From: Stigmatella ashevillena
GTDB lineage: Bacteria > Myxococcota > Myxococcia > Myxococcales > Myxococcaceae
Assembly: GCF_028368975.1 (NCBI RefSeq)
Contig: NZ_JAQNDM010000002.1
Coordinates: 4,954,425-5,018,424 of the forward strand
Reading direction: 5' to 3'
Length of the DNA stretch: 64,000 nt
Shown here: in pieces, positions 16,388-41,846 of the stretch
How the letters are laid out: each line of letters starts with the position of its first letter
Position numbering within the stretch: position 1 is the stretch's first letter
Notes under the pieces: model-generated
What the model was told of the DNA's origin: nothing
What the model saw: only the letters and a program-made list of their open reading frames with translations
The model's database searches: none
Position numbers and translations under genes: made by a program

Positions 16388-17407
16388 ATGGACTATGAGC
16401 TGCTGAAGTGTCCGGGCTGTGGCGCGAAGTTCCCGCCGCCCGCTTATCTCTGGGGCGCGCTCACGTGCGAGTACTGCGGCGCCACGGCCGTGGCCGCCAC
16501 CGGAGGCTGGCCCCTCGCGCCGCCTCCGCGCCCCGAGCCCCCCTTCGCGCCCCACCTGCCCCGCGCCACCGTGGCGGGGGTCCGCTACGCCGTTCTCGGG
16601 CGCCTGGGGCAGGGAGATGGCAGCGAGGTGTTCCTCGCCCGCCGGGACGCGCGGCTCAGCGAGCGGGTGGTGCTCAAGGTGGCCCGGGCCCAGGAAGACG
16701 CCCACCTCGTCGCCCGCGAGTTCGAGGTGGTGGGCGAGCTGCTCGCCAGCAAGGCCCAGGGCGCCGAGCACTTCAGCCGGCTCCTGCCCCAGCCCGTGGC
16801 GCAAGGGCCCGTGAAGGACCCCGAGGGCACCCCGCGGGCGGCGGCGGTGTACCGCTGGCGGAGCGGCTTCCAGCACACCTTCTCCGAGGTCCTCGACGCG
16901 TACCCCACGGGCGTGGACCCCCGGGCGGCCGTGTGGATGTGGAAGCGCGTGCTCGAGCTGCTCGCGTTCGTCCACGGCAGCGGGTACGTGCACGGGGCCG
17001 TGCTGCCGCCCCACCTGCTCGTGCACCCCCGGGACCATGGGGTGGTACTGGTGGGCTGGTCGAGCGCCCTGCGCTTCGCCTCCCGGCAGCCCCTGCCCGC
17101 CCGGAGCCAGCGGCACCGGCCCTTCTACCCTCCGGACATTTGGAACGGAGCGCCACCCACCCCCGCCACGGACCTGGCCATGAGCGCGCGCTCGCTCGTG
17201 GCCGTGCTCGGGGGCGAGCCGGAGACGGGAAGGGTTCCCCTGTCCGTGCCCCCGCCGCTCGCGGACCTGCTGAAGTGCCAGGTGAATCCGGACCACCGGG
17301 AAGCCCTGGACGATTCCTGGAAACTGAGAGACCGCCTCGACGCCGCCGCGAAGGACGCCTTTGGCCCTCCGCGGTACACCCCCTTCACCCTGCCCGGATG
17401 GGGCTGA
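16388..17407 (+). CDS. Zinc-ribbon pseudokinase
   Basis: 339 residues. The N-terminus is a zinc ribbon (C8-x2-C11, C27-x2-C30). A protein-kinase fold follows: Gly loop GRLGQGDGSEVFL, ATP lysine in VVLKVARAQ, helical C-lobe. The catalytic loop reads HGAVLPPHLLVH instead of HRDxKxxN, and DFG is replaced by GWS, so catalytic activity is unlikely. It begins an operon 30 bp upstream of a vWA gene and a PurA-like gene. vWA proteins beside a zinc-bearing kinase recall the TerY-P triads of Ter stress systems, although no PP2C phosphatase is present. A regulatory or scaffolding role is inferred. Confidence 0.8.
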   Translation: MDYELLKCPGCGAKFPPPAYLWGALTCEYCGATAVAATGGWPLAPPPRPEPPFAPHLPRATVAGVRYAVLGRLGQGDGSEVFLARRDARLSERVVLKVARAQEDAHLVAREFEVVGELLASKAQGAEHFSRLLPQPVAQGPVKDPEGTPRAAAVYRWRSGFQHTFSEVLDAYPTGVDPRAAVWMWKRVLELLAFVHGSGYVHGAVLPPHLLVHPRDHGVVLVGWSSALRFASRQPLPARSQRHRPFYPPDIWNGAPPTPATDLAMSARSLVAVLGGEPETGRVPLSVPPPLADLLKCQVNPDHREALDDSWKLRDRLDAAAKDAFGPPRYTPFTLPGWG

Positions 17408-17437
17408 GCGCCCGCACCAATAAAGGATTGAGACGCC

Positions 17438-18415
17438 ATGGGACACGGAAGCTACAGCTACGAGGCACACGAGGCGATGACCCGGGCCCGCTCGGACCGG
17501 CCCGTCCAGGAGGTCTTCACCCAGGTCCACTGCCACCCGTTGATGGACCCGCGCGGGGTGAAGATCCGCGAGAGCCGGGACAGCCCCGCCCACCCCCGCT
17601 CCCTGGGCATCGTGTTCGCGCTCGACGTCACCGGTTCCATGGGCGCCATCCCGGACCTGCTGGCGCGCCAGTACCTGCCCACCTTCATGAAGACGCTGCT
17701 GGACTCCGGGGTGCAGGATCCCCAGGTGCTCTTCATGGCCGTGGGAGATGCCAACCATGACCGCGCCCCCTTGCAGGTGGGACAGTTCGAGTCCGCCGAG
17801 CGCCAGATGGACCAGTGGCTCACCTGGACCTATCTGGAAGGCGGCGGCGGGGAGTTCGGCGTCGAGTCCTACGAGCTGGGCATGTACTTCGCCGCCCGCC
17901 ACACCCAGATGGACTGCTGGGCCAAGCGCCAGCACCGGGGCTACTTCTTCATGACGGGGGACGAGCGGCCCTACCCGTACGTCTCCCGCAAGCAGATCGG
18001 CGAGCTCATCGGCGCGCCGCTGGAGAAGGACCTTCCCACCGAGCAGGTGGTGGACGAGTTGCAGCGCACCTTCGAGCCGTTCTTCCTCATCCCGGACCTC
18101 GACCGGCTGCGCCACTGCGAGCGCGCATGGAGGGATCTGCTCGGCGACCGGGTCATCAGCATGGAGAACCCAGTAGACACCGTGGCCGTGGCCGCGGGGC
18201 TGGTGGGCCTGTGCGAGGGCGTCTTCCCGGATCTCGACGCGCTCGTCCGGCGGCTGGAGAAGGAGAACATGCCGCGGCAACGGCTGGGGGCGGTGGTGCG
18301 CTCGCTCACCCCGTTCGCGGCCCTCCTGGAGCGGGATGGTGTCCCCAAGCCCCGGCTCAGCGGGAGCGCGGACCTGCCCACCGGCGAGGGCTCCTCGGGT
18401 TACGGCCGCCGCTGA
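17438..18415 (+). CDS. vWA-domain protein
   Basis: 325 residues. The vWA domain starts at about residue 55. The metal (MIDAS) motif is D63-V-T-G-S, with later conserved Thr/Asp positions around TGDERPY. The N-terminus GSYSYEAHEAMTRAR and the segment CHPLMDPRGVKIRESRDS are shared almost residue for residue with the paralogue at 40941-41846, so they define a subfamily. vWA domains bind ligands or partner proteins through a divalent metal. It lies between the pseudokinase (30-bp gap) and the PurA-like gene (8-bp gap), so the three are almost certainly co-expressed. Confidence 0.85.
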   Translation: MGHGSYSYEAHEAMTRARSDRPVQEVFTQVHCHPLMDPRGVKIRESRDSPAHPRSLGIVFALDVTGSMGAIPDLLARQYLPTFMKTLLDSGVQDPQVLFMAVGDANHDRAPLQVGQFESAERQMDQWLTWTYLEGGGGEFGVESYELGMYFAARHTQMDCWAKRQHRGYFFMTGDERPYPYVSRKQIGELIGAPLEKDLPTEQVVDELQRTFEPFFLIPDLDRLRHCERAWRDLLGDRVISMENPVDTVAVAAGLVGLCEGVFPDLDALVRRLEKENMPRQRLGAVVRSLTPFAALLERDGVPKPRLSGSADLPTGEGSSGYGRR

Positions 18416-18423
18416 GGGCTCCC

Positions 18424-19803
18424 ATGTCCGTGCGCCGTGAGGCCCATGCTGTCGTGGATCTCGGCTTTGGCGATGCCGGCAAGGGGACCCTCACCGAGTG
18501 GTTGGTGCGGCGGCATGGGGCGCGGTTGGTGGTCCGCTTCAACGGGGGCGCGCAGGCGGGCCACAACGTCGTCACCGAGGAGGGACGGCACCACACCTTC
18601 TCCCAGTTCGGCGCCGGCAGCTTCGTGCCCGGGGTGTGGACCCACCTGGCGCGCACCACCGTCTTTCATCCGCTCGCGATGCTCGTGGAGGCGCGGTACC
18701 TGGCACGGCAAGGCGTCACGGACGTGCTCGGCCGCACGACGGTGAGCGAGGGTGCACGGCTCATCACCCCCTTCCACCAAGCGGCGGGACGGATTCGCGA
18801 GTTGGCCCGCGGCGAGGGACGCCATGGCACGTGCGGCGTGGGCGTCGGAGAGACGGTGCGGGATGCTCTGACCCACCCCACCGGCGCGCTCCACGCGGCG
18901 GACCTCCTCCACCCCGAGCGGCTCCTGCGCAAGGCCCGCCAAGCCCAGGAGCGACTTCGCGCGGAACTCGCCGAGGCGCTGCGCGCGGCGAAGGCCTCTC
19001 CCCAGGCCGAGCCTGAACGCTCCTTGATGGAGGACCCCGGCATCGCCTCACGTTGGGCCGAAGCCGTGACGGCGCTCCAGCCGGAACAGCGCGTGGTGGA
19101 GGACGCCTGGCTGGGCACCCGCCTCCAGGAGGGCACCACCGTGTTCGAGGGCGCCCAGGGCGTACTCCTGGACGAGAACTGGGGCTTCCATCCCCATACG
19201 ACGTGGAGCACCTGCACCTTCGACAACGTCCTCGCGCTGCTGCGTGAGCATGGATTCGATGGGCCAGTACACCGGCTGGGCGTGCTGCGCGCCTACACCC
19301 CGCGCCACGGAGAAGGCCCGCTGCCCACCGAGAATGCCGCCCTCGCATCGGCTCTGCCCGAGCCCCACAACAGCGCCGCGGGATGGCAAGGCCACTTCCG
19401 GGTGGGCAGCTTCGACGCGGTGCTGGCACGCTACGCTCTGGCCGCCTGTGGGGGCGTGGATGCCCTGGCGGTGACGCACCTGGACCGACTGTCAGAGCGC
19501 TGGCCGGTGTGCACGGCCTATCGCGCGCCTCTGGGCTGCGACGGAGGGAGCTTCCTCCGGGAACCGAGCGATTCCCCGCGCGTGACCGCACTGCGTCTTG
19601 GCCACCCAGGAGATCTCGCCTACCAGGAGCAGCTCACACGGGGATTGCTCCAGTGCGAGCCTTGGCCAGAAGTGCTCGAACTTGGGGAAGATGCCGAAGC
19701 GCGAGCCGCGCGGTTCGTATCCTGGATTGAAACTACTCTGAGAGTGCCCGTGAAGGTGACGTCCCATGGGCCCACTTCCCTGAATAAGCGCTCCAGAGAT
19801 TGA
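18424..19803 (+). CDS. Divergent adenylosuccinate synthetase (PurA-like)
   Basis: 459 residues. PurA landmarks are recognisable but altered: GFGDAGKGT for GDEGKGK (the Asp and Lys kept), NGGAQAGHN for GGxNAGHT (His kept), GTCGVGVGET for GTTGRGIGP (Arg lost), FEGAQGVLLDENWG, AYTPRHGEGPLPTE for the RVGEGPFPTE segment, and HGPTSLNKRS at the GPxR end. Canonical PurA joins IMP and Asp using GTP. Phage PurZ shows that relatives can act on dGMP. The altered substrate loops and an operon with a vWA protein and a pseudokinase, not purine genes, suggest a specialised nucleotide reaction rather than housekeeping AMP synthesis (inference). Confidence 0.8.
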   Translation: MSVRREAHAVVDLGFGDAGKGTLTEWLVRRHGARLVVRFNGGAQAGHNVVTEEGRHHTFSQFGAGSFVPGVWTHLARTTVFHPLAMLVEARYLARQGVTDVLGRTTVSEGARLITPFHQAAGRIRELARGEGRHGTCGVGVGETVRDALTHPTGALHAADLLHPERLLRKARQAQERLRAELAEALRAAKASPQAEPERSLMEDPGIASRWAEAVTALQPEQRVVEDAWLGTRLQEGTTVFEGAQGVLLDENWGFHPHTTWSTCTFDNVLALLREHGFDGPVHRLGVLRAYTPRHGEGPLPTENAALASALPEPHNSAAGWQGHFRVGSFDAVLARYALAACGGVDALAVTHLDRLSERWPVCTAYRAPLGCDGGSFLREPSDSPRVTALRLGHPGDLAYQEQLTRGLLQCEPWPEVLELGEDAEARAARFVSWIETTLRVPVKVTSHGPTSLNKRSRD

Positions 19804-19813
19804 CAGACTTCCC

Positions 19814-20039
19814 ATGTCATCAGTGAAACGTCGGTACGCATTGGGATTGGCAGGAGCTTCTCTTTTCATATTGATGGAATGGCTCTCTTTTCCATTCCTG
19901 CTAAGCGGTGCAAGCACCTTCGTCCAGTACGCCTTTATGGCTGGAACGTGGCCCTGCTTCTCTTCAATTGGCTGTGCTACGGGCTCTTGGGTTTCCTCGC
20001 CGGGCTCAAACTCGGCGGCGCCCTTTGGAAGGAGCAGTA
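19814..20039 (+). pseudogene. Small membrane protein gene, frameshifted
   Basis: It starts 10 bp after the PurA-like stop. The first frame gives MSSVKRRYALGLAGASLFIL and EWLSFPFLL, a membrane helix. The second half makes sense only in another frame, LYGWNVALLLFNWLCYG then LLGFLAGLKLGGALW, ending at a TAG at 20037-20039. A one-base change between about 19905 and 19935 would restore a two-helix protein of about 75 residues. It is the likely fourth member of the pseudokinase-vWA-PurA operon. Whether it is broken in the organism or only in this sequence is unknown. Confidence 0.5.
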
Positions 20040-20505
20040 GGCCACACGCCACCGATGGTCGTGATGGCCTTCACCTCGTCGGATGACGGGCGTCTGGCTC
20101 ATGTCGAAACCTTTACACTGTCAAACAAACTCTCGGGTTCCCCGACCCTGCTCGTGACGCGGAGATGCTGTCACGTTCCCGGCGCACCAGCACGGGAGGG
20201 TGGATTGTCCAGCTCACGAATGCGCCGCTCACGCTTGAGGCCCCCTCGCACATCGAGGCGCTGCTCCGCGCATATGCGCGCTTCCCAGAGATTGGCGGGC
20301 GCGTCACCCATCGCTGATGTGCTTGGAGTTTGGGCAACTTCTGGAGCATCGCAGTGGCAGCAAGACAAGATGAGACGACCCAAACAGGCATACTGACGGG
20401 GTGTCGACCAGATCACCACAACGTCAGCCTGCCGTCTGACTTGGCGACAGCCTTTTTCCACTCAATATTGACTGACCCAACACAGATCCTTATTAGGAGG
20501 TCCAC
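20040..20505 (+). other. Gene-poor gap with a decayed coding remnant
   Basis: This is 466 bp with no intact gene. From 20164 to 20317 the plus strand reads EMLSRSRRTSTGGWIVQLTN, then APLTLEAPSHIEALLRAYAR, and on to a stop. This looks like the C-terminal end of a real protein whose upstream part is lost; I do not recognise it. The last 40 bp are AT-rich and lead to the ribosome site of the next gene. Confidence 0.35.
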
Positions 20506-21702
20506 ATGAGATGGCATTGGGGAACGCTTGTCGTCGGTGCGATACTGAGCCTCGGAAGCAGCCCCGCCTGGGGTAGCGATGCACTCTCCTTGGCCAAGAA
20601 AGAACTACCAACTGAAATTCCTCCCATCCATGAATACAAAAATTTAGATTCAGTACAGAATCAAAATTCTGAATTCTCTTCATCAAGTGGGTGCCCTGCT
20701 TCAGGAATCGTCGGCTTTAGTGTGGTGGGGTCAGGCCATGTCTCAAGTGGAGAGCCAACACTGCTCGGCTATTCAGGAACCTACCAGAACGTGGGAGGAG
20801 GCTGGATCCAAGGAGGAGGAACATTCATTGCGCCTTGCCCAGGCCTGTACTCCTTCTCGGTCTCCTTCGTGAAGGATGCTTATTACTCTGCCGGGACTAC
20901 GGACGATGTATTTGTCCATATCAAGCAAAACGGGATTGATAAGGGGTATGCTTGGAGCGGCGAGGGGGCAGGATACCGTGACACTGGGGCCTATAGCGTC
21001 GTCCTTCTTCTTCAGGACGGAGATTATATTCAAACATTTGTCAGCAGCGATGGCAGCTCGACTCGTCACCTGGCGAGGTATAATTTCACAGGCCACCTAG
21101 TAAAATCGTCGTCGCTCAAGGCGAATTGCCGGGAGATTCTTGAGGGTGGCTTGTCTAAAGGCAGCGGCTTATACCAAGTCGATTTCGATGATGCTGCTCC
21201 TCTGAGCCCTTCCTGGGTCTACTGCGATATGACGACTGATGGAGGTGGCTGGACACTGGTGATGAATCAGAACCCAGCCGAGCGGTTGCCCTATAATTTC
21301 TCTACTGTCAATCCTCAGAACTTTGGCAGTTTGACCGAGACGTACCGATTGGGTAGCAGCGCCATCAGGGCCTTGCGACCAACGACTGCCTGGGTTTTGA
21401 CTGACGATTCGAATCGAGTCTACTTCCAGCCCACCTGCATGGTGGAGTGGGAGACCAGTCTCCTTAACAAGCCCATTGGTCCTTGCAACCAGGGCTTCAC
21501 GTCACTTGGCTTCTCGACTCCTGTATCTTCTGTGGTCACGGCCAATGGCAGCATGGGGATTGGCCAGAACAATTCCGGACAGTATTGTAGCATCCGAGCC
21601 TTCCTGTACAATCAGGAGCCAGATACAACAAGGTGGCCACCTGGAGCCGCGTTAAGCTGCGCAGGAACGACCAGCCAGACAATCCGGTTGTGGTTCAAGT
21701 AG
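20506..21702 (+). CDS. Secreted C1q-like plus fibrinogen-like protein
   Basis: 398 residues. ATG with AGGAGG at 20495-20500. Signal peptide 1-23. Residues about 65-205 match the C1q/TNF jelly roll: VGFSVVGSG, a YQNVGGGW strand, GGGTFIAPCPGLYSFSVSF, ending LARYNFTGHLV. Residues about 212-398 match the N-terminal half of a fibrinogen C-terminal domain: CREILEGG, GLYQVDFDD, WVYCDMTTDGGGWTLVMNQ. Both are classic animal recognition modules. The DNA is much more AT-rich than its neighbours (for example 20640-20690) and is flanked by transposase and kinase debris, which points to transfer. A role in binding surfaces, prey or kin is inferred. Confidence 0.85.
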   Translation: MRWHWGTLVVGAILSLGSSPAWGSDALSLAKKELPTEIPPIHEYKNLDSVQNQNSEFSSSSGCPASGIVGFSVVGSGHVSSGEPTLLGYSGTYQNVGGGWIQGGGTFIAPCPGLYSFSVSFVKDAYYSAGTTDDVFVHIKQNGIDKGYAWSGEGAGYRDTGAYSVVLLLQDGDYIQTFVSSDGSSTRHLARYNFTGHLVKSSSLKANCREILEGGLSKGSGLYQVDFDDAAPLSPSWVYCDMTTDGGGWTLVMNQNPAERLPYNFSTVNPQNFGSLTETYRLGSSAIRALRPTTAWVLTDDSNRVYFQPTCMVEWETSLLNKPIGPCNQGFTSLGFSTPVSSVVTANGSMGIGQNNSGQYCSIRAFLYNQEPDTTRWPPGAALSCAGTTSQTIRLWFK

Positions 21703-22045: not shown

Positions 22046-22790
22046 GTGAATCAAGAGGCGCCCCTTTTCCCGGAGATGTGCAGTGGCCTTCGATGCAATC
22101 CTTGGAGTGGGTCGACTCACTCTTCGAGGAGAACCGATCAGAAGAGGCTCAAGCCGCTGCGAGAGTTTCGCGGAGCCGCCTTGCCTGGGCACTCGCTGGG
22201 GGTGTACGCACCGGAACAGGGACTGGTGGAGGACAGGGTGTCCCGTGAGGACGCGCACGCCCAAGAGAGGACGTTGGTGGCCGCCGCGCTGGCGCATGCT
22301 CAGCAGGGGGACTTGTGGATAGCAGACAGGAACTTCTTCACCCCCCGGATTGTCTTTGGCTTGGAGGACCCACACGCCGCTTTCATTATCCGAGAGCACG
22401 GGCGCACTCGCAGCCCGACGCAGGTGAGCAAGCGCAAGAAGGTGGGCCGTGTGGAGACGGGTGTCGTCTTCGAGCAGGCAGTCCAGGTGGAGGACGACAA
22501 GGGACGCCTGCTCACGCTTCGTCGCATCGAACTTCGCTGGATGCTCCCATCGAGGAAGGGGAGCCCCTCATTCCGCCGAACAGGTGGCGTGCTTGTACCG
22601 CAAGCGCTGGAGCATCGAAGGCATGTCTCAGAGCCTTGAATCCGCTCTTCGCAGCGAGGTACGGACGCTGGGCCAGCTCAGAGTGGCACAGCTGGCTCTC
22701 GGTACCGCCGTGGTGGCTTACAACCTCTTGGCAGTCATCCAGGTGGCTATCGAGGTCGGGATGATGATTGCCCTGGTTGACGAGATTTGA
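22046..22790 (+). pseudogene. IS4-type transposase, truncated and frameshifted
   Basis: The main frame gives LREFRGAALPGHSLGVYAPE and ADRNFFTPRIVFGLEDPHAA, the beta-strand with the second catalytic Asp of IS4-type DDE transposases. The C-terminal part lies in a different frame from about 22570: YRKRWSIEGMSQSLESALRS carries the Y-x2-R-x3-E signature, with Glu where the final Lys is expected. It ends at 22790. The N-terminal third with the first Asp is missing. It is clearly inactive. No terminal repeats were found. Confidence 0.75.
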
Positions 22791-22985
22791 GCAGCCTTTG
22801 ACGAGCAGTCCCCTCTCCAACTCATGCGTATACGATTGATGTGCAGCCCAGCGGGCCCATCGCCTACGCCTATCATTTCACACTGGACTGAAGACAGGCT
22901 CGTCCGACGCCCAGGGCCGAGCGGGATGCGCCGGAGAACAAACCTCTCCCGTCATGCTGATTTGGCGCAACCTATCAGGTAGGAT

Positions 22986-24383
22986 GTGGAGGCGGAAAGC
23001 CTCCTGCCTTCACCTCCAGGTGCCCCCTCCATGGACGCGCTGTCACCCGAAGCACTCCCCTCGGGGACCCTCATCGGTTCGTGGGTGGTAGAAGGATGCG
23101 CCGGTTACGGAACATATGGGGTGGTCTACCGCGCACATCGGGAAGGGCACACGGAGCCGGTGGCCCTCAAGTTGGCACGGCACCCGAACGATGAACGCTT
23201 CGCTCGTGAGGCGGAGCTGCTGACCCGGATTCAGCACCCGGGCGTCCCCCGCTTCCTGGACGGGGGAACCTGGACGGGGGGCCGCACGCGGGACAAGTAC
23301 CCTTATCTGGTGATGCAGTGGGTGGAGGGTCTTCGGCTGTATGCCTGGGCGAACCAGCACCCGCTCGTGTCGCCCCAGGTGCCGCGGGTGCTGGCCCAGG
23401 TGGCCAGGGCCCTGGAAGCCACCCACGCGTGCCAGGGACTTCACCGCGACGTGAAGGGGGACAACATTCTGGTCACCCCCAGCGGCCGAGCCTTCCTCAT
23501 GGACTTCGGGTGCGGCACCTGGGCGGGGGCCGCCTCCCTCACCGATGGGATTCTGGCCCCCGGCACCAAGCTCTACCGCAGCCCCCAGGCGCTGCGCTTT
23601 CAGTGGAAACACCGCCGTGCGCCCACCGCCCATTACCCCGCGACACCGGCCGATGATGTGTATGCCTTGGGGGTAACGGCCTACCACCTCTGCACGGGAA
23701 TCTATCCGCCCCTCGCGACGGCTCCCTCCATCCTGGAGGATGATGCACGGGACACGCAGGAGGCGCTCGTACCTCCTGGCAGACTCACCCCGCTGAGGCC
23801 TGAACTGGAGGCCCTCATCCTCCGAATGCTCTCCGATCATCCCCAGGACCGAGGCAATGCCGCAGAGCTGGCCGCGGCCATGGAGGCGCTGGTGGCCACC
23901 ACCGAGCCTGAACCGGGCCCCCCGGTGAGCCAGAGCCTCCCCACCGTGCCTTCAGAGGACACGGGCCCTCCCGCCCCGCTCCCTCATTCCAGCGGCAGAT
24001 GGCCCTTCGTCCTCTTCCCACTGGCCGCCGTGCTCCTCATCTTCATCTCTGGAAGCCTGAACATAGAGGGGGCTCGGTATCCTCCTTCTGGCATGAGTGA
24101 TGGCGGAACCGGCGGTGTGGCGGACGCGGCCGTGGCGGACATTCCCGCTTCCAGCGAGCCGAAGGATGCCGAGCCCAACCGACTGAGCCTCGACATCCCT
24201 CAGGAGCCTTTGCCGGGCCAGCGCCGCCCGCCGTGCCTGCGCTCCCAGAGCAACATCCGGGGAGGCTGCTGGATGGAGCTCAAAGCCGCCCCACCCTGCG
24301 AAGAGGGCTCTTACGCTTGGAAGGAGGCCTGTTACTCCCCTGTGCTCGCCCCTCCCCGTCCTAGCACTTCGGACAGGCCTTAG
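22986..24383 (+). CDS. Membrane Ser/Thr protein kinase
   Basis: 465 residues from a GTG (ATG at 23031 possible). Kinase domain about 28-305: GYGTYGVVYRA loop, VALKLARHP lysine, HRDVKGDNILV catalytic loop, LMDFGCG for DFG. A transmembrane helix (about 340-358, WPFVLFPLAAVLLIFISG) leads to an outside tail with the spaced cysteines RPPC, GGCWME, PPCEEG and EACYSP, the same pattern as the kinase at 1-1373. Unlike that copy it has no TPR or ATPase partners. The tail pattern suggests a small disulphide-bonded sensor domain (inference). Confidence 0.9.
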   Translation: MEAESLLPSPPGAPSMDALSPEALPSGTLIGSWVVEGCAGYGTYGVVYRAHREGHTEPVALKLARHPNDERFAREAELLTRIQHPGVPRFLDGGTWTGGRTRDKYPYLVMQWVEGLRLYAWANQHPLVSPQVPRVLAQVARALEATHACQGLHRDVKGDNILVTPSGRAFLMDFGCGTWAGAASLTDGILAPGTKLYRSPQALRFQWKHRRAPTAHYPATPADDVYALGVTAYHLCTGIYPPLATAPSILEDDARDTQEALVPPGRLTPLRPELEALILRMLSDHPQDRGNAAELAAAMEALVATTEPEPGPPVSQSLPTVPSEDTGPPAPLPHSSGRWPFVLFPLAAVLLIFISGSLNIEGARYPPSGMSDGGTGGVADAAVADIPASSEPKDAEPNRLSLDIPQEPLPGQRRPPCLRSQSNIRGGCWMELKAAPPCEEGSYAWKEACYSPVLAPPRPSTSDRP

Positions 24384-24494
24384 GTCCCTGCGTCCCGTGA
24401 CGGACCAGCGGATCCGTGCAGGGCACACGCCAGCGCGTCGGTCCAACCGGCCATCTCGCGTCTGACGAGGGTGCTGGGGGGGGCCAACAACTCC

Positions 24495-24502
24495 ACCTCA
24501 AC
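24495..24502. repeat. 8-bp target site duplication, left copy
   Basis: ACCTCAAC directly abuts the left end of the IS66 element. The identical octamer is at 26905-26912. Confidence 0.85.
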
Positions 24503-24618
24503 GTATCCGTCCGGCCAGGGACGTGGTGGAGGGGATTGAGGACGGACCCGTGTCGTGCTCGGCGAAGAGCGCGAGTTCAAGGGGGACAGGAGAGCGTTGA
24601 GGAGGAAGCGGAGCGAGC

Positions 24619-26103
24619 TCAGGCCGCGGCGGCGACGTCCAGGTGAGGCTTCCACAGGTGGGGGAGCAGTTCGTCGATGCGCGAGTTGGGGTGAGTCTGC
24701 ACGCGCAGCAGCACGTCTTGCAGGTACAGCTCGGGGTTGATGCCGTTGGCCTCACAGGTGGCCACCAAAGCATAGAGGCCCGCCAGGTTCTCGCCCGCAG
24801 CCTGATGGCCGACGAAGAGGAAATTCTTGCGACCCAAGGCCACCTTGCGCAGTGCGCCCTCGCTGCGGTTGTTGTCCAAAGGCAACCGCTCGTCATCCAC
24901 GAAGCGGCAGAGGGGCTGCCACTGGTGGAGAGTATAGGAGAGAGCCTGACCCATGGGGCTCTTGGGTGGATGCAGCGGCAGTTGCGCGGTGAGCCAGGCG
25001 TGGAGCGCCTGGAGGATGGGGCGGCTCTTGTGCTGGCGCAGAGCCCGGTGGGTCAGCATGCGCACCACGCCTGTCTGCACCGCCTCGTGCTCCACTCGGT
25101 AGAGCGACAGGATGAAATCCAAGGCCTGCTGGGCCTCGGGCGCGGTGGACAGAGCGTCGAAGAATTTGCGGCGCGCGTGCGACCAGCAACCGACGCGGAT
25201 GCGCCCGCCCGGCAGTGTCACGGGGTTGTAACCGGTATACGCATCCACCACGAGCGCCCCCAACGTGCCGTTCAACACCTGCTGGGGTGTTTTTCCAGAG
25301 CGGCTCATGCTGAAGCGGTAGCCAATGAGCCACTGGCCTTGCTCATTCTGAGTCAGGAATGTCCACAGGTAGCCCAGGTGTGTCTTCTTCACCTCCAGCA
25401 CGCGCAGCGGCGTCTCATCGGCCCACACCACGGCCGACTGGCTGATGAGCAGCAGCAGGCGCGCGGCCAATGGGGCCACCCCTTCGGCAGCCCGATGGAA
25501 CAAGTCCGTCAGGGTGCTGCGGCTCATGGGCACCCCGGCTCGCTCCACGCGCTGCGCCAGCCGATGCAGGGGCAACGAGTCTGCGCATTTGGAGGCCACC
25601 ACGTGAGCGATGAAGCCGGGCCCATACTCGCCCCTGTCCACCACCTTGGGGGGAGGGGGCGCCGTCACCACGCCCTTGCCGCAGGCGCACGCCAGCGTTT
25701 CCTGGACATGCACCTGTCGCTCGAAGCGCGGCGGAATGTATTCGTACAGGGCGCTGATGCGACCCGCCCCCAGAGGCTTCAACTCCTGGCTGCCACAAGC
25801 AGGACACTGGCGTTGCTGCTCGGGCACAGCGTGGCGCACCTCGCGGGTGGGTGCCTGCTCCCGCTTGCGAGCGGCCCGCTCGCGTCTCTTCTGGAGCGCG
25901 GCCTGGGCTTGGGCGGCTTCCTCCGTGTCGGTCCTCTCGGCTCGCAATTGCTGGCGCACCGTCGGCAATCGCTCGGCCTTCTTGCCGAACACGTGCCGCT
26001 CCAGGGAGGCCATCTTCGCCTCCAACGTGGTGAGCCGCTCGCGCAGCTCTTCGGCCTCTTCTCTCCACGGGCAGAAATGGTCTAACGGCAGCTCTCGGGG
26101 CAC
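24619..26103 (-). CDS. tnpC: IS66 transposase TnpC
   Basis: 494 residues. N-terminal coiled coil (EELRERLTTLEAKMASLERH, leucine-zipper-like), then a zinc finger with CPACGSQ and CACG, then the DDE catalytic core (VVWADETPLRVLE, LVVDAYTGYNPV, and the final Glu in DNNRSEGALRKVALGRKNF). It ends with the short C-terminal domain typical of the family. Length is normal and the frame is uninterrupted, so it should be active. It carries out DNA cleavage and strand transfer together with TnpA and TnpB. Confidence 0.95.
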   Translation of the reverse strand: MPRELPLDHFCPWREEAEELRERLTTLEAKMASLERHVFGKKAERLPTVRQQLRAERTDTEEAAQAQAALQKRRERAARKREQAPTREVRHAVPEQQRQCPACGSQELKPLGAGRISALYEYIPPRFERQVHVQETLACACGKGVVTAPPPPKVVDRGEYGPGFIAHVVASKCADSLPLHRLAQRVERAGVPMSRSTLTDLFHRAAEGVAPLAARLLLLISQSAVVWADETPLRVLEVKKTHLGYLWTFLTQNEQGQWLIGYRFSMSRSGKTPQQVLNGTLGALVVDAYTGYNPVTLPGGRIRVGCWSHARRKFFDALSTAPEAQQALDFILSLYRVEHEAVQTGVVRMLTHRALRQHKSRPILQALHAWLTAQLPLHPPKSPMGQALSYTLHQWQPLCRFVDDERLPLDNNRSEGALRKVALGRKNFLFVGHQAAGENLAGLYALVATCEANGINPELYLQDVLLRVQTHPNSRIDELLPHLWKPHLDVAAAA

Positions 26104-40940: not shown

Positions 40941-41846
40941 ATGGGATACGGCAGCTACAGCTACGAAGCACACGAGGCGATGACGCAGGCCCGTCAAAAC
41001 TTGCCGCAGCAGGAGGTGTTCCGGCAGCGGGAATGTCACCCGAAGATGAATCCCCACGGGGTGCGGCTCCGGGAGAGCCGGGACAGCGAGGCCCATCCGA
41101 ACTCGCTGGCCATCGTGTTCGCCCTCGATGTGTCAGGGTCCATGGGCGAAATCCCGGACATGCTGGCGCGCAAGCACCTGCCCTCGTTCATGAAGAACCT
41201 GCTGGAGGCCGGGGTCGCCGATCCGCAGGTGCTGTTCATGGCCATCGGCAACGCCTACGCGGACCGGGCCCCGCTCCAGGTGGGCCAGTTCGAGTCCTCC
41301 GAGCAGCAGATGGACCAGTGGCTCACCCGGATGTACCTGGAAGGCGGCGGCGGGGGGCTCGGCGAGACGTACGAGTTGGCGATGTACTTCGCCGCGGAGC
41401 ACACCGCGATGGACTGCCTCGAGAAGCGCCAGAAGAAGGGCTACCTCCTCATGACGGGGGACGAGCCTGCCTTCGACAAGGCCTCCAAGGCGCACATCCA
41501 GCAGGTCATCGGCGATGTCATCCCCGAGGACCTGCCCGTGAAGCAGGTGTTCCAGCGGCTGGAGCAATCCTTCGAGATGTTCTTCCTGATTCCGGACGGC
41601 AAGCGGCGGCAGTACGAGGACTTCTGGCGCTACCACCTGGGCGACCGGGTCATCTGCATGGACGCGCCCGAGGACACGTGCACCGTGGCCGCCGGCATCG
41701 TGGCCCTCCGGGAAGGCGCGGTGTCCTCCGTGGAGGCCCTCACCGAGAGGCTCCGCCAGCAGAATACCCCCGCGGCGCGCATCCGGGGCGTCATCAACGC
41801 CCTGACGCCGTGGGCCCAGAAGCTCCCGGGCGCCGCGAACCGCTGA
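40941..41846 (+). CDS. vWA-domain protein, paralogue
   Basis: 301 residues. MIDAS motif D63-V-S-G-S, a canonical DxSxS. The N-terminus GSYSYEAHEAMTQAR and ECHPKMNPHGVRLRESRDSE align without gaps to the vWA protein at 17438-18415, and the domain body (LFMAIGNAYADRAPLQVGQF, MTGDEPAF) is likewise close. Here the neighbours are a hybrid histidine kinase (33 bp upstream) and a convergent kinase, not a pseudokinase and PurA. So the same vWA subfamily is wired into two different contexts. Confidence 0.88.
   Translation: MGYGSYSYEAHEAMTQARQNLPQQEVFRQRECHPKMNPHGVRLRESRDSEAHPNSLAIVFALDVSGSMGEIPDMLARKHLPSFMKNLLEAGVADPQVLFMAIGNAYADRAPLQVGQFESSEQQMDQWLTRMYLEGGGGGLGETYELAMYFAAEHTAMDCLEKRQKKGYLLMTGDEPAFDKASKAHIQQVIGDVIPEDLPVKQVFQRLEQSFEMFFLIPDGKRRQYEDFWRYHLGDRVICMDAPEDTCTVAAGIVALREGAVSSVEALTERLRQQNTPAARIRGVINALTPWAQKLPGAANR

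Follow-up and report, generated by a model that had tools for sequence, protein, structure and literature searches.

A candidate three-gene module of bacteria and large phages that links a PurA relative to a vWA protein and a pseudokinase

What does a relative of adenylosuccinate synthetase (PurA) do in the company of a vWA-domain protein and a kinase-like protein? This question is raised by a 64,000-nucleotide stretch of Stigmatella ashevillena DNA, here called the window, in which three genes lie head to tail on the plus strand, separated by gaps of 30 and 8 bp. They encode the kinase-like protein (KIN), the vWA protein (vWA) and the PurA relative (PUR). A first-pass annotation, made from the sequence alone, had placed the three genes at these positions and with these gaps, and both were borne out. 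It had added a fourth gene, to which we return below. The genes and the motifs that carry the argument are as follows.

16388-17407, plus strand: KIN, 339 amino acids, an N-terminal Cys4 zinc ribbon and a degenerate protein-kinase-like domain (pseudokinase), judged from the translation, alignments and phrog_3043
16409-16477, plus strand: zinc-ribbon cysteines C8, C11, C27 and C30 of KIN, from alignments
17438-18415, plus strand: vWA-domain protein, 325 amino acids, MIDAS-like D63-x-T-G-S67, from the structure model, the alignment to integrin beta I domains and phrog_2971
17624-17638, plus strand: MIDAS-like motif DVTGS (D63-V-T-G-S67) of the vWA protein, from column conservation
18424-19803, plus strand: PUR, 459 amino acids, a PurA-superfamily enzyme placed in a third branch beside PurA and PurZ, from PF00709, trees and the structure model
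18469-18486, plus strand: GDAGKG of PUR, in which catalytic D17 and K20 (E. coli D13 and K16) are kept, from alignment columns
18541-18567, plus strand: NGGAQAGHN of PUR, in which H47 (E. coli H41) is kept while N38 is replaced by Q and T42 by N, from alignment columns
18826-18852, plus strand: GTCGVGVGE of PUR, in which E. coli T129 is replaced by C and the GIGP proline by E, from alignment columns
19369-19407, plus strand: PUR loop N316..W321-Q322-G323..R326-x-G328, which replaces the aspartate loop TTGRxRR, from alignment columns

The triad is conserved in bacteria and on plasmids

Loci from named genomes were retrieved with the vWA alignment alone, and PUR and KIN were then sought with hidden Markov models. 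In 74 of the 79 loci obtained in this way, PUR was found on the same strand as vWA, and all three genes were present in 70. Two of the five loci without PUR end with the contig (L081 and L131), and the other three do not (L069, L073 and L128). The order KIN-vWA-PUR was observed in 60 loci, and six had tandem vWA arrangements (KIN-vWA-vWA-PUR, KVVP, or KIN-vWA-PUR-vWA, KVPV). Judged from record titles and tree labels, the 79 loci cover about twelve phylum-level groups, i.e. Myxococcota, Pseudomonadota, Actinomycetota, Chloroflexota, Acidobacteriota, Verrucomicrobiota, Planctomycetota, Fibrobacterota, Eremiobacterota, Bdellovibrionota, Bacteroidota and Uhrbacteria. On plasmids of Rhodococcus, Tsukamurella, Variovorax, Agrobacterium and Acetobacter, vWA is likewise followed by PUR. 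The first-pass annotation had recommended a search for the gene triple in other genomes, and would have given up its proposal had the triple been confined to this one; it is conserved widely in bacteria and, as described below, also in phages.

Within the lineage of the window the distribution is patchy. The vWA gene was detected in 33 of the 145 genomes of the order, a few of these matches being weak or partial, and in 8 of 46 genera; at an E value of 1e-10 it was found in 35 of the 195 genomes of the phylum. Four of the seven listed genomes of the genus contain it, and among genomes of the genus the triad is syntenic. The dN/dS ratios within the genus were 0.22-0.23 for KIN, 0.18-0.20 for vWA and 0.13-0.17 for PUR, which indicates that the pseudokinase is maintained. 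In two genomes of a Myxococcus-like genus, only partial matches to vWA were found (L059 and L060), accompanied in L059 by a partial match to PUR, which suggests decay of the module.

When the flanking open reading frames (ORFs) of 66 non-redundant loci were clustered, most of the genes turned out to be housekeeping genes or specific to a lineage. The cluster with the widest spread, which has members at 11 loci (sensor kinases and response regulators, judged by eye), was discounted because its genes occur in either orientation and at varying distances. Among the clusters common to unrelated lineages, only Nudix/NrtR genes lie close to the triad.

PUR is neither PurA nor PurZ

PUR is the sole member of the triad that is recognized by Pfam (Adenylsucc_synt, PF00709, 203 bits, 8e-60); Pfam recognizes neither KIN nor vWA of the window. 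Together with public annotation, which calls the protein adenylosuccinate synthetase, this match is what favors an explanation of the locus as a housekeeping PurA next to unrelated genes. However, the same genome contains a separate canonical PurA that scores 610 bits, compared to 202 bits for PUR, and a separate canonical PurA was also found in 24 of 25 other triad genomes tested (split over two contigs in one of them). The exception, in which only PUR was found, is a metagenome-assembled Chloroflexi genome. PUR also falls far below the NCBIfam cut-offs for PurA (158.7 versus 402 bits for NF002223 and 135.1 versus 395.55 bits for TIGR00184), and the triad is conserved in phages as well as across about twelve phylum-level groups of bacteria. 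A housekeeping role can thus be regarded as refuted and retains next to no probability. The first-pass annotation had also argued that PUR is not the housekeeping enzyme, and had named its being the only PurA of the genome as the finding that would overturn this; a second, canonical PurA is present.

The PUR structure model has a predicted local distance difference test (pLDDT) value of 93.7, and its best match in the PDB is E. coli PurA (E value 6.7e-34, about 25% identity over the model). In a FastTree phylogeny of 134 rows, 23 PurA and 2 PurZ sequences were separated from 109 PUR rows with a support of 0.998, and an IQ-TREE phylogeny of 69 rows, one of them bad (L149), gave the same split with 100/99; PurZ0 and archaeal PurA lie outside both samples. 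The tree with PurA and PurZ that had been proposed at the outset therefore places PUR on a branch of its own. Most of the PUR diversity in the tree sample is contributed by phage sequences. Judged by these sequence comparisons, the PurA superfamily has a third branch, which is formed by PUR. Assignment to the PurA type was rejected on account of the family cut-offs, the replaced TTGRxRR loop and the separate canonical PurA. Assignment to the PurZ type was rejected as well, as PUR reaches 42.7 bits with the PurZ profile (cut-off 300), keeps the catalytic Asp, and lies outside the clade of PurA and PurZ.

The active site retains the GTP side and replaces the substrate side

The columns of the active site were compared in 107 PUR rows (near-copies included), 23 PurA rows and 2 PurZ rows, using E. 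coli PurA numbering. D13, K16, H41 and Q224, which we take to be catalytic, are kept in 104, 104, 106 and 104 PUR rows, respectively, all others being gaps. Including D333, presumably part of the guanine site, the five columns are kept in 103-106 of the 107 rows; one row has N for D333 and the rest are gaps. In contrast, positions on the substrate side are exchanged: N38 for Q in 105 rows, T42 for N in 97, T129 for C in 104 and the GIGP proline for E in 101. In the aspartate loop, T300 is replaced by W in 101 rows and T301 by Q in 104, whereas T301 is a T in 23 of 23 PurA rows. Across PUR and phage rows, WQG or WNG was found in 98 of 110, while WQG occurs in none of the 23 PurA rows. The column of E. 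coli R143 was not used as evidence, as it is poorly aligned and contains R in only 16 of the 23 PurA rows. In a passage of PMC8342488, R303 of PurA is described as contacting both aspartate and the ribose of inosine monophosphate (IMP).

This pattern indicates that PUR retains the parts for GTP binding and 6-oxo activation, and that the positions for holding aspartate and the nucleotide were exchanged in concert. Because the replaced positions are themselves nearly invariant, the loss of the substrate-site residues does not represent random decay. The same columns could be read in another way, namely that PUR is a GTP-binding switch or nucleotide sensor that reports the state of 6-oxopurines via vWA and KIN and is no synthetase at all. 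Retention of the GTP-site residues next to a swapped, nearly invariant substrate site would suit such a sensor, as would a partner kinase that is mostly a pseudoenzyme. A pure sensor, however, would have no need of the catalytic Asp/His pair and the Gln, which are kept in all ungapped rows, and we therefore consider this reading improbable.

Large phages carry the module

The phage set comprised 83 loci, i.e. 80 loci on viral contigs plus L179-L181, and includes near-copies. The arrangement was KIN-vWA-PUR in 37 loci, vWA-PUR in 43, KIN-vWA in one and vWA only in two; vWA and PUR were found together in 80 of the 83. A vWA relative was present in at least 375 viral-contig stretches, which were recovered from 600 pattern matches. 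Among 50,697 phage records, the vWA query matched 207, of which 188 were phages of Mycobacterium, ten of Rhizobium, six of Vibrio and three of others. The PUR query matched 189, ten and six records from the same three host genera plus further records, part of which are canonical-like PurA. Among the best matches to the vWA and PUR queries of Vibrio phage pv27, six Vibrio, ten Rhizobium and one faecal phage accession were common to both, and in these records the two genes adjoin. In the mycobacteriophage Pleione, KIN, vWA and PUR are gp265, gp266 and gp268, which carry only the annotations kinase, hypothetical protein and PurA. Two short viral contigs (L184 and L185) encode a vWA that is 59% identical to that of the window, and they may be bacterial DNA.

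A gene of about 128 codons lies directly upstream of vWA in 27 of the 45 phage loci without a detected KIN, e.g. at L246:5181-5567. It never occurred together with KIN in this set, is also present in Hahella (compare L140:9576-9968), and had no Pfam match in the two examples that were scanned. Recurrent neighbors in the phages encode R2K ATP-grasp proteins (15 loci), DNA-ligase-like proteins (14, by eye), RNA-repair-type HAD proteins (14) and TROVE proteins (10); one representative each of the R2K, HAD and TROVE groups was scanned with Pfam. The R2K-clade ATP-grasp genes (L218:8228-9031 and 14 further phage loci) are mostly situated within 1 kb downstream of PUR in one phage group; HAD_SAK_2-type genes lie within 1 kb upstream in 11 cases. 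Such neighbors point toward nucleotide or RNA repair, but they may reflect phage lineage.

Phage carriage raises the possibility that the product of PUR is an unusual (deoxy)purine nucleotide destined for the DNA or RNA of phages, in analogy to PurZ and 2-aminoadenine, and that bacteria have captured the module. The widest PUR diversity of the sample is indeed found in phages, the module resides in large phage genomes, and RefSeq and PHROGs give the PUR of mycobacteriophages the PurZ-type name '2-aminooxy adenylosuccinate synthetase' (e.g. NC_023737 gp268, PHROG 1211), a product name that is shared with PurZ of phiVC8. The trees do not support this name. PurZ and PUR are both PurA-superfamily enzymes found in phages, as is PurZ0, but Asp occupies the catalytic position in all ungapped PUR and phage rows while both PurZ rows have Ser, the GTP-site Asp kept in PUR is Q or N in PurZ, and PUR lies outside the clade of PurA and PurZ. 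In the stretch around the Pleione module no MazZ or DatZ annotation was found (whole phage genomes were not searched), and all that Vibrio phage pv27 has in this respect is a metal-dependent phosphohydrolase of unspecified type at a distance of about 7 kb. In addition, the module is chromosomal in many bacteria, in some of them beside NAD genes, for which DNA hypermodification provides no explanation. Taken together, a PurZ-like role appears decidedly unlikely.

The kinase-like domain of KIN is mostly degenerate, and vWA has a predicted integrin-like fold

The description of KIN as a zinc-ribbon kinase lacking HRD and DFG could be confirmed in the translation, which contains Cys8, 11, 27 and 30 and has HGAV and VGW at the HRD and DFG positions. 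KIN matches phrog_3043 ('kinase') at 5.7e-22 and has weak matches in PADLOC, NCBIfam and the PDB, among them the defense kinases MkoA, PglW, PD-T4-6 and MAD6. Its best PDB sequence match is the pseudokinase VRK3 (3.6e-4), and many active kinases match more weakly still. Relatives from phages match Pfam Pkinase above the cut-off, at 4e-12 and 9e-9. These profile matches suggest a relationship of KIN to protein kinases.

Of 59 non-redundant KIN rows, which come from bacteria, two plasmid loci and a single mycobacteriophage, 55 have the VAIK Lys, two have HRD and nine have the DFG Asp; the commonest triplet in place of HRD is HGA (32 rows). When near-copies are included, HRD occurs in 13 of 100 rows, mostly of the Variovorax type. 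The corresponding numbers for 38 viral-contig rows were 21 for the VAIK Lys, none for HRD and six for the DFG Asp. The kinase-like domain of KIN is thus degenerate in most members, yet KIN is under purifying selection. All 15 rows aligned from the window's order have the zinc-ribbon cysteines, which in a wider alignment are kept in 25-29 of 40 rows. Some KIN proteins have an N-terminal match to the DnaJ J-domain that lies below the Pfam cut-off, e.g. in L186 (1.5e-4) and in Acetobacter (1.7e-4). In the proteins at L186:4643-5806 and L269:4977-6008, this match takes the place of the zinc ribbon. The combination of a J-domain-like N-terminus with vWA suggests that a scaffold or co-chaperone role may apply.

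The AlphaFold model of the vWA protein (pLDDT 93.7) aligns to integrin beta I domains with Z scores of about 14.5-16 over 186-200 residues. D63, G66 and S67 are present in at least 90% of 44 rows and belong to DVTGS, which we take to be a metal ion-dependent adhesion site (MIDAS) motif. A sequence search of the PDB gave no match for vWA, and in PHROGs it matches phrog_2971 (2.1e-50), a family of unknown function. The original assignment of the second gene to the vWA proteins stands on the predicted fold and the MIDAS-like residues.

A compact operon in which a vWA protein is paired with a kinase-like protein bearing a zinc ribbon is reminiscent of the TerY-P triad, which is described in a passage of PMC11090510 as consisting of a vWA protein, a PP2C phosphatase and a kinase with a C-terminal zinc ribbon. 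In the present triad, in contrast, a PurA-like enzyme takes the place of PP2C, the zinc ribbon is N-terminal (residues 8-30) and the kinase is degenerate. No PP2C was found among the window neighbors scanned, nor in 25 of 85 neighbor families drawn from 51 of 70 operonic neighbors, those omitted being mostly near-duplicates. Membership in TerY-P was therefore rejected, in agreement with the first-pass annotation.

A related function could nevertheless be envisaged, in which vWA and the kinase sense a threat and PUR makes an alarm nucleotide or drains GTP and IMP, i.e. a stress or anti-phage switch. Besides the likeness to TerY-P, the defense kinases among the weak KIN matches and the patchy presence in the order and the genus would be consistent with such a switch, and on an Agrobacterium vitis plasmid genes for an AAA ATPase, a DUF5682 protein and a WGR-domain protein lie behind the triad. 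On the other hand, the kinase is mostly degenerate, neither a PP2C nor a nuclease was found among the neighbors and neighbor families just mentioned, and the triad of the window is syntenic within the genus and lies outside any obvious defense island. Many phages carry the module themselves, which is unusual for host defense; phage carriage fits phage metabolism or counter-defense at least as well. We regard a host switch as rather unlikely. The first-pass annotation had suggested a stress or defense system; a defense role found no support, and the regulatory connection that was observed, at a minority of loci, leads to NrtR/Nudix and NAD-salvage genes.

NAD and ADP-ribose genes lie next to a minority of triads

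Over 299 kb of near flank, a Nudix-domain gene was found within 2.5 kb of the triad in 10 of the 66 non-redundant loci, compared to 4 loci over 637 kb of farther flank, in three of which it is an NrtR heading the same nicotinamide adenine dinucleotide (NAD) operon; the Nudix profile was built from eight of the counted genes and hence favors them. Eight of the ten near genes are NrtR-like and two are NadM-like. The NrtR winged-helix domain scored above the Pfam cut-off at L085, L090, L098, L135, L140, L137, L138 and L142 and on the A. vitis plasmid; the Rhodococcus match is weak (0.013), and the Tsukamurella gene has the Nudix domain only. NrtR is rare, with 17 copies in 15 triad genomes of about 105 Mb in total; six of these genomes were chosen for a nearby NrtR, and the other nine contain six copies in all.

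In Accumulibacter-like genomes a NAD-salvage operon ends in the triad. The order at L085 is a divergent NrtR gene, an isochorismatase-type gene (a weak match, nicotinamidase-like by eye), NAPRTase, NAD synthase, NadM, KIN, vWA and PUR. L080 is arranged alike, and L135 lacks NadM directly before KIN. At L137, an Anaerolineae locus (Chloroflexota), the triad is accompanied by NrtR, and an ADP-ribosylglycohydrolase is encoded two genes downstream. On the A. vitis plasmid (L268:8364-12762), the triad and a divergent NrtR-like gene are followed by the AAA ATPase, DUF5682 and WGR-domain genes. In one Rhizobium phage, genes for a HAD hydrolase, a PRTase_3 protein and a Nudix protein are located 3-5 kb upstream of vWA.

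Section 3.8 of PMC9503650 describes NrtR as a sensor of ADP-ribose, and also systems centered on an ADP-ribosylglycohydrolase (ARG) that is combined with a Nudix regulator and vWA. The NrtR-type regulator and vWA are common to these systems and the triad, and at L137 an ADP-ribosylglycohydrolase gene is present as well. In contrast to the ARG-centered systems, the ARG core is absent from the scanned window neighbors and was encountered once among the 51 operonic neighbors. In several lineages, albeit at a minority of loci, the NAD and ADP-ribose neighbors point to the class of substrate on which PUR would act.

Other genes at the locus

The four-gene operon proposed initially holds for KIN, vWA and PUR, which form the conserved set, but not for the small membrane protein gene that had been placed at 19814-20039. 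The ORF that starts at 19814 ends at 20086, and the stop at 20039 belongs to another frame. Neither frame had a match better than an E value of 0.2 at 34 loci of the order, including three of the same genus, and the gene was thus rejected as a member of the module. The gene at 20506-21702 encodes C1q and fibrinogen-C domains (Pfam 3.9e-8 and 2e-7). The window also contains a second vWA gene, to which the first-pass annotation had not referred:

40941-41846, plus strand: VWA2, a paralogue 60% identical to the vWA protein, from homology; its Pfam VWA match (0.0032) is below the cut-off

In the window, VWA2 immediately follows a hybrid histidine kinase gene and is separated from the triad by about 21 kb, whereas in Myxococcus-like genomes its equivalent is directly downstream of PUR (the KVPV arrangement). 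IS66-type and broken transposase ORFs, judged by eye, occupy about 22046-26103 between the triad and VWA2, and they could explain the split from PUR.

Discussion

The reading that we favor, tentatively and as somewhat short of probable, is that KIN, vWA and PUR form one functional module of bacteria and large phages, here named KVP, in which a purine-modifying enzyme linked to NAD or ADP-ribose works with a vWA/pseudokinase partner pair; its chemistry and purpose are inferred. PUR would use GTP to phosphorylate the 6-oxo (lactam) group of a purine, and a nucleophile would then displace the phosphate. The substrate would not be free IMP and the nucleophile would not be aspartate. Because of the neighboring genes, the substrate would most likely be a hypoxanthine nucleotide derived from NAD or ADP-ribose, while another dinucleotide or a polymer-borne purine may also be considered. 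Paired in the manner of a scaffold or co-chaperone, the vWA protein, as a Mg-dependent binding domain, and the pseudokinase would hand the substrate to PUR or gate it. Expression of the triad would be tied to ADP-ribose wherever the NrtR regulator is present.

Several observations weigh against this proposal. By the profile used, no Nudix gene lies within 2.5 kb of the triad in 56 of the 66 non-redundant loci, three of the 15 triad genomes lack NrtR altogether, and the single NrtR of the window's genome is located about 1.5 Mb from the triad. The 83 phage loci contain only four Nudix-like ORFs, two of them near-copies, and have R2K ATP-grasp, HAD, ligase-like and TROVE genes as recurrent neighbors instead. 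KIN went undetected in 45 of the 83 phage loci, some of which are cut near a contig end, and is thus not required in every case. Lastly, PUR has retained an arginine in the aspartate loop (R326) that can be assigned neither to E. coli R303 nor to R305.

A bolder version of the favored reading, which we consider unlikely as it stands, is that PUR represents the third enzyme class of the PurA superfamily, an aminase or ligase that depends on GTP and modifies the base of NAD/ADP-ribose-type or polymer-borne hypoxanthine nucleotides. The substrate would be delivered, and the enzyme gated, by vWA and the pseudokinase as a chaperone-like pair, and both phages and bacteria would use the module in their conflict. 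If true, this activity could, for example, restore deaminated NAD, or make or remove a conflict signal.

We provisionally rate the KVP triad as a new system. In the open full-text literature, which leaves subscription papers and preprints mostly outside, no description of the triad was found, and an earlier mention is possible, e.g. in the 2012 Ter-system and the 2008 NrtR papers. The words 'adenylosuccinate' and 'PurA' are absent from the main texts of PMC7159879, PMC11090510, PMC7824862 and PMC9503650. A passage of a 2026 PurZ paper mentions that its tree is rooted with 'other PurA homologs' (PMC12884076). Compared to PurA, with which it shares the superfamily and fold (PF00709) and the equivalents of D13, K16, H41, Q224 and D333, PUR differs in the replaced aspartate-loop and IMP-contact positions and in its linkage to vWA and a pseudokinase.

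As PurZ reportedly demonstrated, the DNA alphabet can be altered by a single PurA relative. With PUR, a second departure from PurA comes to light: a hitherto undescribed branch that has its own nearly invariant substrate-site pattern and is tied to partner proteins. Public annotation hides it under 'adenylosuccinate synthetase' or a PurZ-type name. The NrtR and NAD neighbors make the question of its substrate directly testable, and mycobacteriophages of the Pleione type, which can be grown on a standard laboratory strain, represent an immediate genetic model for the triad.

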